From Kofleriaceae bacterium (GTDB lineage Bacteria > Myxococcota_A > Polyangia > Haliangiales > Haliangiaceae): DNA of 64,000 nt. A program made the position numbers and the translations under genes. Location of the stretch: NCBI GenBank assembly GCA_018057825.1, contig JAGPCY010000015.1, positions 24,200-88,199 of the forward strand, given 5' to 3'. Positions within the stretch are counted from its first letter, which is position 1. Each line of letters starts with the position of its first letter. Below, piece after piece: positions 1 through 45,181 of the stretch. The notes below the pieces were generated by a model, which worked only from the letters and a program-made list of their open reading frames with translations, made no database searches and was not told the DNA's origin.

Positions 1-783
1 TCCCTGCGCTGCAGCAGACAGCGGCTGAACGGCGGCCCTCACGCACCACCACCACCACCGCTCAGATGGACGGCGGTGCTCCCGCGATCCGGACCTCTTC
101 GTGAAAGGTGGGTGGGGGCCCCTTCGCGTTGCGAAGGGGGAGGGTTATGTCGGAGGTCACCAACTCCCTGCGCTGCAGCAGACAGCGGCTGAACGGCGGC
201 CCTCACGCACCACCACCACCACCGCTCAGATGGACGGCGGTGCTCCCGCGATCCGGACCTCTTCGTGAAAGGTGGGTGGGGGCCCCTTCGCTTTGCGAAG
301 GGGGAGGGTTTTGCCGGAGGTCACCAACTCCCTGCGCTGAAGCAGACAGCGGCTGAACGCCGGCCCTCACGCACCACCACCACCGCCCCAGATCTCCCAC
401 GATGCTCCCGCGATCCGGACGTTTTGGGTGGGGGCCCCTTCGCTTTGCGAAGGGGGAGGGTCTTGTCGGAGGTCACCGACTCCCTGCGCTGAAGCAGACA
501 GCGGCTGAACGCCGGCCCTCACGCACCACCACCACCGCTCAGATGGACGACGGTGCTCCCGCGATCCGGACGTTTTGGGTGGGGGCCCCTTCGCTTTGCG
601 AAGGAGGAGGGTTTTTTCCGAGGTCACCAACTCCCTGCGCTGAAGCAGACAGCGGCTGAACGCCGGCCCTCACGTGCCACCACCGCCGCCCAGATCGCCC
701 ACGACGCTCCCGCGATCCGGACGTTATGGGAGGGGGGCCCCTTCGCGAAGCGAAGGGGGGAGGGTTTTTTCGAAAAACCCTCC
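1..783. repeat. Tandem array of five ~150-164 bp multi-hairpin repeats (array A)
   Basis: Five head-to-tail copies begin near 1, 165, 329, 481 and 632, with periods of 164, 164, 152 and 151. Each copy has a conserved head (GAGGTCACCAACTCCCTGCG), an A/C-rich CACCACCACC stretch, a GCTCCCGCGATCCGGAC block, and a perfect 9 bp hairpin (CCCCTTCGC, 3-nt loop, GCGAAGGGG, first copy 119-139). The copy ends in GGAGGGTT. The stem is kept while the loop varies (GTT, TTT, GAA). No protein-like reading frame is conserved, and the array may continue to the left of the window. It ends only a few bases from the 3' end of tRNA-Cys. Related arrays lie at 7698-7999 and 31494-31938. It is not a CRISPR, because whole units repeat without unique spacers. 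Confidence 0.9.
759..783 (-). terminator. Terminator-like hairpin downstream of tRNA-Cys
   Basis: A perfect 11 bp inverted repeat (GGAGGGTTTTT / AAAAACCCTCC, 3-nt loop) lies 5 bases past the mature 3' end of the tRNA on the minus strand. It has no clear U-tract after the stem, so intrinsic termination is plausible but unproven. It is also the last element of repeat array A. Confidence 0.45.
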
Positions 784-788
784 AACAG

Positions 789-860
<72 letters not shown>

Positions 861-7531: not shown

Positions 7532-7669
7532 CGTCTCGGTCTCGGTCTCGGTCTCGGCCTCGGCCTCGGCCTCGGCCTCGGCCTCGGTCTCGGTCTCGGT
7601 CTCCGTCTCGGTCTCTGCCTCGGCCTCGGCCTCGGACTCGGTCTCGGTCTCGGCCTCGGTCTCCGCCTC
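7532..7669. repeat. Hexanucleotide tract (CTCGGY)n, 138 bp
   Basis: About 23 tandem copies of a 6-bp unit, CTCGGT or CTCGGC with a few CTCCGT/CTCGGA variants, lie about 90 bp upstream of the kinase start. A more degenerate CCTC-rich lead-in runs from about 7495. On the minus strand the unit is GAGRCC. A tract of the same unit and the same length is at 45044-45181. I see no evidence that it is translated. Confidence 0.9.
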
Positions 7670-7697: not shown

Positions 7698-7999
7698 CGA
7701 GGTCACCCCCTCACTGCGCTGAAGCAGCCGGCGCCCCTGGGGGGCGCCCGCCGACCGGAGGGAGGGGTCTCGGAGGGGAGGCTCGCTGGGGCTACGCCCC
7801 AGCGAGGGGAGGTTTGGTGACTTGGTGACAAACCTCCCCAAAAAGAACCGACCGGAGGGAGGGGTCTCGGAGGGGAGGCTCGCTGGGGCTACGCTCCAGC
7901 GAGGGGAGGTTTGGTGACAAACCTCCCCCAAAAACCGACCGGGAGGCTCGCTGGGGCTACGCCCCAGCGAGGGGAGGTTTGGTGACAAACCTCCCCAAA
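7698..7999. repeat. Multi-hairpin repeat array B
   Basis: The array has one full head (GAGGTCACC...CACTGCGCTGAAGCAG, 7699-7726) followed by a GGCGCCCC/GGGGCGCC hairpin (7730-7748). Three copies follow of an 11 bp hairpin, CTCGCTGGGGC-TAC-GCCCCAGCGAG (7782-7806, 7879-7903, 7947-7971). Each is followed by a second hairpin, GGGGAGGTTTG-GTGA-CAAACCTCCCC (complete at 7904-7929 and 7971-7996). The first copy of that second hairpin has an 8-nt duplication in its loop. One stem copy has a C-to-T change that still pairs as G-U. The right edge lies about 10 nt past the stop of the minus-strand lipoprotein gene. Confidence 0.88.
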
Positions 8000-8006
8000 A
8001 GAACGC

Positions 8007-8291
8007 TCAACTCAGCACGAACCCACGCCCGACATCCCCCTCGTCGCTCGAGCCACGGATGCGGTCGGCGCACGGATCGGCGCACGGATCACCCTCGCCG
8101 CACGGGTTGGCGGTCTGGTTCGGATCGGTCGCCGCGCACGGGTCGCCGGTCGGCTGATCGGGCTGGGCCTCGACGGTGGTGTCGGTGGTGGCCGGCTTGG
8201 CCTTGCCGCCGCAGGCCGCGGTGCCGAGCATGGCGCCGGCGAACACGACGGTCTTCCAGATGGTCTTGGTGGCTTCGCGACGAAGGTTCAT
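8007..8291 (-). CDS. Small lipoprotein
   Basis: This is a 94-aa product from ATG 8291 (MNLRREATKTIWKTV). It has a basic n-region, a hydrophobic segment and a lipobox (LGTAAC), then a Thr/Pro/Asp-rich mature part with paired-Cys motifs (GDPCAATDPN, NPCGEGDPCADPCADR). It has no recognised domain. The start lies 40 bp downstream of the polyferredoxin stop on the same strand, so it may be the last gene of the redox operon. A longer reading from 8327 is possible, but the lipoprotein signal fits 8291. Its stop abuts hairpin array B. The function is unknown. Confidence 0.7.
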   Translation of the reverse strand: MNLRREATKTIWKTVVFAGAMLGTAACGGKAKPATTDTTVEAQPDQPTGDPCAATDPNQTANPCGEGDPCADPCADRIRGSSDEGDVGRGFVLS

Positions 8292-30385: not shown

Positions 30386-31135
<750 letters not shown>

Positions 31136-31147
<12 letters not shown>

Positions 31148-31494
31148 ACGTGTTGATCCGTGAACCCGGTGCGTAGCGCGCGGGCGCCGTGGTTTCTACC
31201 GGGCGGGTATCCGGAACCACCGACGTGAACCAGCGGTTTCAGAGGTGGCGGCGAACGGTCGTTGCGATGCGTTGCGTTGATCCTAGGACCGGCTGCGTAG
31301 CGCGCGGGCGCGGTGGTTTCTACCGGGCGGGTATGCATTTTGATCCCTGAACCCGGTGCGTAGCGCGCGGGGTTGGTGGTTCCTACCGGGCGGGTATCCG
31401 GCAGCCCGTGCGTGAACCAGCGGTTTCGGAGGTGGCGGGCGAACGGTCGTTGCGATGCGTTGATGCTGAACCCGGCGCGTGAGGCGCGAGCGTG
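31136..31494. repeat. Second intergenic repeat family (three to four units)
   Basis: Imperfect units share TTGATCCCTGAACCCGG, TGCGTAGCGCGCGGG and TACCGGGCGGGTAT. Units begin near 31154, 31278, 31340 and 31461. Two of them (31154-31277 and 31340-31460) also carry GTGAACCAGCGGTTTC and GAACGGTCGTTGCGATGCG; one is short and the last is truncated. A fragment at 31136-31149 overlaps the stop codon of the FHA gene. No protein-coding frame is conserved. The family is different from the hairpin arrays and runs directly into array C. Confidence 0.85.
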
Positions 31495-31938
31495 GTCACC
31501 ACCCACCTGCGCTGCACCACCCGGCGCCCCGGAGGGGCGCGTCTCGGGTGGGGGACCCGCCGGGGGCGTGACCCCGGCGGGGGAGGGTTTGGTGACAAAC
31601 CCTCCCAAAAGACACGGGGCGCGTCTCGGGTGGGGGACCCGCCGGGGACCTGGCCCCGGCGGGGGAGGGTTTGGTGACACGCACGTCCGAGGTCACCACC
31701 CATCTGCGTTGCACCACCGCGGCGCCCCGGAGGGGCGCCGGCGCCCCGGAGGGGCGCGTCTCGGGTGGGGGACCCGCCGGGGACCTGGCCCCGGCGGGGG
31801 AGGGTTTGGTGACACGCACGTCCGAGGTCACCAACCACCCGTGTTTGCACCACCGCGGCGCCCCGGAGGGGCGCGTCTCGGGTGGGGGACCCGCCGGGGA
31901 CCTGGCCCCGGCGGGGGAGGGTTTGGTGACAAACCCTC
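31494..31938. repeat. Multi-hairpin repeat array C
   Basis: About four units begin near 31494, 31613 (partial), 31689 and 31826. Heads read GGTCACCACCCACCTGCGCTG or close variants. GCGCCCC-GGA-GGGGCGC hairpins follow, then GTCTCGGGTGGGGGA. The central 10 bp stem is CCCGCCGGGG/CCCCGGCGGG (for example 31556-31581). The last element is GGAGGGTTTG-GTGA-CAAACCCTCC, complete at about 31581-31606 and 31915-31937. Compared with array B the last stem changes CCTCC to CCCTCC with the matching change on the other arm, so pairing is kept. The right edge touches the stop of the minus-strand His-rich lipoprotein gene. Confidence 0.88.
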
Positions 31939-31940
31939 AA

Positions 31941-32189
31941 TCAAAACGGATGGTGATGGCCGTTGGGCCCCGCCAGGTGGGGATGCGGGTGCGGGTGGTG
32001 ATGGTGCGGGCTGGTGCCGTGGGGATGGGCGCCGTGGGCGTGCTCGTGGGGCTTGTGCTTGGGCGCGGCCGGACGATTCGGCGTCGGCTCGACGCGCCAG
32101 GTGCGCTTGCGCGGAGCGGGGCGGGGGCTCGAGGAGCAGGCCGCGACGCTGAGCAGACCGAACACGGCGACGAGCGCGAGCCAGCGCAT
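31941..32189 (-). CDS. Histidine-rich lipoprotein
   Basis: The 82-aa product starts at ATG 32189 (MRWLALVAVFG); a GTG one codon earlier is also possible. The lipobox is LSVAAC. After a basic Pro-rich spacer the tail is His-rich (HKPHEHAHGAHPHG, HHHHPHPHPHLAGPNGHHHPF, nearly half His/Pro). Such tails bind Ni, Zn or Cu in other proteins, so a surface metal buffer is plausible. The start overlaps the upstream stop as TGATG. The stop lies within 4 bp of a hairpin of array C. The ORF is short, but the strong signal, coupling and composition support it. Confidence 0.75.
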   Translation of the reverse strand: MRWLALVAVFGLLSVAACSSSPRPAPRKRTWRVEPTPNRPAAPKHKPHEHAHGAHPHGTSPHHHHPHPHPHLAGPNGHHHPF

Positions 32190-45038: not shown

Positions 45039-45043
45039 GCTCC

Positions 45044-45181
45044 GAGACCGAGACCGAGGCGGAGGCCGAGACGGAGACCGAGGCCGAGACCGAGACCGAG
45101 AACGAGGCCGAGGCGGAGGCCGAGACCGAGGCCGAGGCGGAGACCGAGACGGAGACCGAGACCGAGACCGAGGCCGAGGCG
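45044..45181. repeat. Hexanucleotide tract (GAGRCS)n, 138 bp
   Basis: Twenty-three consecutive hexamers of GAGACC, GAGGCC, GAGGCG, GAGACG and one GAGAAC start 5 bp after the phosphatase stop and end 35 bp before the convergent kinase stop. It is the same unit as the tract at 7532-7669 read on its other strand. The invariant GAG with variation only in the next three bases would spell (Glu-Thr/Ala)n, but no gene uses that frame here. Confidence 0.9.

Follow-up and report, generated by a model that had tools for sequence, protein, structure and literature searches.

Repeats able to form intrastrand triplexes have been known in bacteria for decades, and we know of no role assigned to them. The BoxC/PIT/TM-ECO repeats of E. 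coli are extragenic, copy-rich, and variable among close relatives, and they consist of three blocks (R, Y, and a third strand) in the mirror register that an intrastrand triplex by definition requires (PMC4666352). BoxC occurs without strand bias and at no fixed distance from ORFs, and work cited in PMC4666352 attributes no terminator activity to the E. coli PIT elements. REP/BIME sequences, with their RAYT proteins, are extragenic palindromes in many clustered copies, often just after stop codons. Intrinsic (Rho-independent) terminators are stable hairpins situated just after genes or tRNAs, and U-less or clustered-hairpin terminators, in which adjacent hairpins lie ≤80 nt from stop codons without a poly-U tail, have been proposed for other bacteria, with no repeat family and no third-strand covariation described (PMC8355165).

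The repeat family described here is closest to two of these kinds: BoxC/PIT, which has the same geometry but other loops, sequence, and placement, and REPs, which occupy the same niche but have a RAYT and a different anatomy. Relative to BoxC/PIT, loop 2 is a perfect hairpin of 20-27 nt (H2), loop 1 carries an extra stem, and the block order is class III for the gene strand and class I for the opposite one, as these classes are defined in PMC4666352. Loops are 1-6 nt under the ITxF definition, whereas here H2 of 20-27 nt lies between blocks, and neither the window nor 292 loci contain a match to the TM-ECO consensus CCCTCNCCCN3-6GGGNGAGGGN3GGGNGAGGG. Unlike BoxC, the element is strict in orientation and spacing at gene 3' ends. 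It differs from REP/BIME in its length (60-150 nt), its two hairpins plus a third block, its single orientation, and the absence of a Y1/RAYT gene from the host genome. At tRNA-Cys it takes the place of an intrinsic terminator, from which it differs by having no U-tract (no T-run directly after the hairpin), by the second hairpin and third block, and by its tandem arrays and mobile behavior. Both features missing from the description of U-less terminators, a repeat family and third-strand covariation, are present.

The window is a 64-kb stretch (contig C64:24200-88199) of host genome G000 (8.9 Mb, 72% GC). An initial annotation of the window placed three arrays of hairpins beside the 3' ends of minus-strand genes; all three are present there and end 2-10 nt from the adjoining genes (Table 1). 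The interval given for array A is correct within the window but is not its full extent, since the array runs leftward past the window edge, from G000:C64:23853, spanning a scaffold gap of 100 N that reaches as far as window base 1. The annotation also had array A end in a GTGA loop, which is not so: the last stem is GGAGGGTTTTTCGAAAAAACCCTCC on the gene strand. Its GNRA interpretation is unsupported, as the strand relevant to placement is the gene strand (minus here), where the loop reads GTCACC, and the CTGCGCTG head that it took to be common to the arrays is degenerate in array C (CTGCGTTG, CGTGTTTG). The single architecture it proposed for the three arrays was recovered: covariance model R2, built from B/C-type sequences alone, matches the final core of array A. 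In most internal units of array A, one arm of the last stem is missing; the gene-proximal unit retains it, and in A arrays generally an intact H3 is found mainly in the gene-proximal unit. With Rfam, only the tRNA was found in the window, the best sub-threshold match scoring 15.9 bits against a gathering threshold of 72.

Table 1. Arrays, cores, and adjoining genes in the window, and direct-repeat-flanked copies in the same-genus genome G025
Feature	Position	Strand	R2 (bits)	Fold z	Sequence or remark
Array A (A-type subfamily)	1..783	(-)			tandem units of ~151 bp
Array A, gene-proximal complete core	721..783	(-)	33.2	-5.1	H3 GGAGGGTTTTTCGAAAAAACCCTCC; H2 CCCCTTCGC..GCGAAGGGG; Y2 CCCCCCTCCC
tRNA-Cys(GCA)	788..860	(-)			3' end 4 nt from array A
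Array B	7698..7999	(-)			three cores, head GAGGTCACC, and hairpin H1
Array B, third core	7765..7839	(-)	71.4
Array B, second core	7862..7928	(-)	76.4
Array B, gene-proximal core	7935..7996	(-)	63.9	-6.1	R GGGGAGG, Y1 CCTCCCC
Small lipoprotein gene	8007..8291	(-)			stop codon 10 nt from array B
Array C	31494..31938	(-)			four cores
Array C, distal core	31539..31606	(-)	90.3
Array C, internal core	31621..31688	(-)	59.1
Array C, internal core	31756..31823	(-)	59.1
Array C, gene-proximal core	31873..31938	(-)	81.3	-3.3	R GAGGG, Y2 CCCCCACCC
His-rich small lipoprotein gene	31941..32189	(-)			stop codon 2 nt from array C
G025 copy	L188:6560-6623				direct repeats of 64 nt
G025 copy	L176:3036-3103				direct repeats of 38 nt
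G025 copy	L180:1403-1466				direct repeats of ~42 nt

BLAST of the host genome with each of the three arrays as query gave 69, 84, and 63 places among the matches listed, so that the family indeed extends well beyond the window. The places merge to ~86 arrays among the matches listed and form two subfamilies, A (array A) and BC (arrays B and C). Regions around the arrays (80 in G000) were examined with genes called by a codon-usage finder trained on these same regions. Matches to R2 number >130 in G000 and at least 120 in the same-genus metagenome-assembled genome G025, whereas G028 has a single match and those in the rest of the 35 genomes of the order are few or weak, these counts being lower bounds from ~150 candidates scored per genome. 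A-type sequences score 28-42 bits with R2, which recovers gene-proximal A-type cores although none of them is in the model. In a collection of 84,980 species, an exact hairpin pattern was found outside G000 only in G025, where copies are mostly single rather than in the tandem arrays of G000.

On the gene strand, the core is made up of H3 (R, loop, and Y1), H2 without a linker, ~3 nt, Y2, and then GAGAC or a relative of it. In 26 diverse cores, 99.0% of stem cells pair and 13 of 20 pairs have changed on both sides, whereas none of 500 shuffles was as good and slid alignments reached at most 63.7% paired; the paired stem changes reported initially therefore exceed chance. Single-strand folding of the cores gave z-scores of -3.3 to -6.1. 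Pairing is Watson-Crick in 2,623 of 2,691 pair cells (outermost pair excluded), with isolated G-T (10), A-C (18), and other mismatches (14). Wobble pairs should be tolerated under selection on RNA, and their near-absence leaves RNA-level selection unsupported while being compatible with maintenance at the DNA level. Maintenance of the DNA accounts for exact Watson-Crick palindromes no less well than selection on an RNA fold does. The initial claim of RNA structure under selection thus holds for the paired change and is unsupported as to the level of selection, G-T wobble not being in excess.

Judged from the sequences, the most unusual property of the element is one absent from the initial annotation, a third covarying block, Y2, which is mirror-symmetric to R. 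In 97 of 102 elements, Y2 matches R as its parallel (mirror) complement: G in R is answered by C in Y2 at 469 of 473 positions, and A in R by T (75), A (29), G (6), or C (5). Distinct R/Y2 combinations match in 35 of 40 cases, against 11.4 when shuffled (maximum 23 in 20,000) and 21.7 expected (maximum 30) when shuffled within H2 class, although these permutation figures overstate independence because the elements are related. The stronger support is that the rule recurs in three other genera, where the sequences differ. The pairs read in relatives are R GGGGAAAC with Y2 CCCCTTCG and R GGGAAAAC with Y2 CCCTTTCG in G016 (genus g2), R GGGAACG with Y2 CCCTTCG in G018 (g4), R GGGAGGGC with Y2 CCCACCC or CCCTCCC in G027 (g1), and R GAGGGGACG with Y2 CACCCCTCC in G029 (g7). 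A-type cores obey the rule in 23 of 24 cases.

Other readings of these blocks were rejected. A Watson-Crick switch between R and Y2 could operate in some classes (fixed CCT linker) but is broken by CCCACCC and CCCGCCC, and would have only ~4 contiguous bp in G016. Antiparallel pairing cannot account for GGGGAA with CCCCTT, and a G-quadruplex was rejected, as many copies carry GG runs only. The three-way correlation of R, Y1, and Y2 is the signature of an intrastrand triplex motif, the triplex itself being a prediction. That Y2 so often has A where R has A fits a purine motif of the opposite strand (T.AT) better than it fits the pyrimidine motif of which RNA is capable. Because the covariation is three-way, the triplex idea is directly testable by point changes in one block.

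Of 86 G000 arrays, 83 have a gene ending towards them with the relative orientation seen in the window, 78 of them within 64 nt, and the strand of the gene on the far side is near-even (45 versus 40). In G025, the gene is in sense orientation for 54 of 58 copies, so that the suggestion of an amplified family tied to transcript ends is upheld in both genomes. Elements begin -2 to 13 nt from the stop codon in 60 G000 cases and -1 to 12 nt in 47 of the 58 G025 copies, for the most part at 5-6 nt, with a mode of 6 nt; the share of oriented noncoding positions expected in that interval is 2.7% in G000 and 4.7% in G025 (binomial p < 1e-50). Several exceptions are arrays that another repeat disrupts at the hairpin. 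Three G025 copies without a nearby stop codon lie 8-9 nt after tRNA-Gln, tRNA-Asn, and tRNA-Gly, and, with the copy after tRNA-Cys, indicate that translation is not required. TGA, TAG, and TAA are used at elements in background proportions, and CTGA was ruled out as an insertion target, TGA occurring in 52 of 73 cases at elements against 378 of 526 in the background.

Tight co-directional junctions are avoided: the next start codon is <30 nt away in 3 of 31 cases with an element, compared to 56 of 103 without (p = 7e-6). From these downstream gaps, the elements lie mainly at the ends of transcription units. A few G025 copies are found within likely operons, for example after a GAPDH-like gene, with the next gene 18 nt beyond the core. 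Genes upstream-adjacent to an element include those for IF-1, IF-3, L11, L27, EF-Ts, and S20.

The comparison at tRNA-Cys covered 30 genomes of the order. About 12 relatives have a hairpin plus T-run terminator within ~10-15 nt of this tRNA, and in G000, G025, G016, and G029 an H3-H2-Y2 element stands in the terminator's place. A displaced terminator was excluded for G025, where no run of four T occurs within 700 nt of tRNA-Cys. At TypA, G000 and G025 both have the element directly after the same stop codon, and the other same-genus genomes read lack it there; the element does not supply the TypA stop codon, since orthologues without it keep the same C-terminus. Only 2 of 54 G025 element genes (TypA and one other) have an element-bearing orthologue among G000 loci covering ~8% of the genome. 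With most placements not shared between orthologues, the family turns over, and no single gene needs the element.

The initial suggestion of a mobile element gains support from three G025 copies away from stop codons (Table 1), which are flanked by direct repeats matching at 64/64, 37/38, and ~40/42 nt. The repeats restore the end or start of an interrupted gene, and these copies are evidence of insertion. At other copies, flanking direct repeats are no more frequent than background (clear ones in 3 of 58 copies in G025). Y1/RAYT transposase (PF01797) has 0 members in G000, which is 99.7% complete, and 17 in G025. Mobilization by RAYT was rejected because G000 lacks a Y1 transposase and, at the lone G025 Y1 locus with a nearby copy, that copy lies at the neighboring gene's 3' end.

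We favor, with a probability of about one half, a 3'-end module that lacks a U-tract, was once mobile, was amplified in this lineage, and probably serves to define or protect the ends of transcripts. Along the gene strand, the module comprises a stop codon or tRNA end, then a short spacer, a perfect H3 with purine-rich 5' arm R, an abutting perfect H2, ~3 nt, and Y2, which as the parallel complement of R could lie along H3 as a third strand. It would have spread by insertion and tandem duplication, and its retention at transcript ends would be due to the compact double hairpin, which, once Y2 folds back, would mark or shield the 3' end as a weak U-less terminator, a block to 3'-to-5' decay, or both. 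A transcript-end role is favored by the placement, the tRNA cases, and the substitution at tRNA-Cys. In E. coli, a terminating ribosome almost fully represses a canonical terminator a few bp after the stop codon (PMC4824070); this repression and the missing U-tract disfavor plain intrinsic termination at 6 nt, which is why a mobile module that marks or shields ends is preferred. Copies in likely operons, unshared placements, the lack of a wobble preference, and the lack of terminator activity in E. coli PIT elements are points against the 3'-end module.

Several other explanations were weighed; because the readings overlap, the confidences given to them are not mutually exclusive. Chance similarity from base composition, with simple tandem duplication at three places, might be suspected in so GC-rich a genome, but family size, covariance-model E-values to 1e-13, covariation controls, and placement statistics exclude it, and we give it a negligible probability. 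It is possible, though doubtful, that the family is selfish REP/MITE-like DNA without host function, inserting preferentially at gene and tRNA 3' ends through machinery of its own that is now lost or acts in trans, its palindromes kept by DNA processes such as hairpin-templated correction. Such an origin agrees with amplification limited to the lineage of G000 and G025, mostly non-orthologous sites, tandem arrays, the direct repeats around three copies, and exact palindromes without excess wobble. However, precise spacing after stop codons used in background proportions is hard to reconcile with a DNA target motif, stop-adjacent copies lack direct repeats, G000 has no Y1 transposase, and elements of unrelated sequence in other genera show the triplex rule and the gene-end placement again.

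The presence of elements after untranslated tRNA genes, and the lack of favor for G-U pairs, speak against a REP-like mRNA element that would tune how stable the upstream gene's mRNA is, or how it is translated, and would not terminate transcription; H3 and H2 would act by blocking 3'-to-5' exonucleases or by contacting the terminating ribosome at its mRNA entrance. We consider this rather unlikely, but the copies inside likely operons count for it, as does the 6-nt modal spacing, which would place H3 at the edge of a stop-codon ribosome. E. coli REPs ≤15 nt from stop codons lower expression, as discussed in PMC12306157, which also agrees with it. A DNA-level barrier like BoxC/PIT, in which the G-rich strand forms a purine-motif intrastrand triplex or H-DNA (R.R:Y) that blocks polymerases or promotes rearrangement, is less probable still. 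Being strand-neutral, it leaves the fixed orientation and stop-codon spacing unexplained, and E. coli BoxC has neither; yet T (75) or A (29) in the third block at R = A fits A.AT and T.AT purine-motif triplets on the non-gene strand, RNA cannot form purine triplexes (PMC4666352), and the arrays expand and contract.

Returning to the 3'-end module, we suggest tentatively that two abutting hairpins with a back-folding third strand (a predicted triple helix, with three-way covariation, in at least 4 genera) may constitute a new class of bacterial 3'-end element, one that would end or protect transcripts without a U-tract and spread as a mobile module replacing ordinary terminators. If this function is true, it would represent U-tract-independent 3'-end formation in bacteria of very high GC content, whose protein genes are hardly ever followed by canonical terminators, and intrastrand-triplex repeats would gain a fixed genomic position and a testable job.

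Several minor observations were made at these loci. Hairpin plus T-run terminators were found after 1 of 531 protein genes in G000, 0 of 268 in G025, and 0 of 108 in the pooled others (loci of 28 genomes), and are common after tRNA-Cys. The genes at A-type arrays in G000 include translation and housekeeping examples (IF-1, IF-3, EF-Ts, L11, L27, and ClpX). A large cluster of many tRNA genes at G025 L179 has elements after two of them, and a similar tRNA cluster is found in G000 at L157/L081. In G000 L068, L078, L084, and L086, the 5' arm of H3 is cut short at the GTCACC loop by an abutting second repeat (..CCCTGCAAG..GTTGCAAGGGTCCGTCGACATTGGGGGCGAAGGTAT), as if that repeat targeted the hairpin, and an insert of ~100 nt (AGGTGGAGGCAGG..GTGCAC) lies between H3 and H2 in G000 arrays L090, L098, and L103. 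A TGACTCG..CGAGTCA palindrome containing the stop codon occurs 5' of the H3-H2-Y2 core at L241, L248, L144 (G018), and L242 (G027). In the window, a degenerate tandem repeat (GAACCCGGTGCGTAGCGCGCGGG..TTTCTACCGGGCGGGTAT) at 31100-31480 lies directly left of array C, and GTCTCG/CCGAG hexamer arrays occur at 7533-7663 and 45042-45180, as well as at L027, L030, L036, L091, and L103, often on the far side of an element array.
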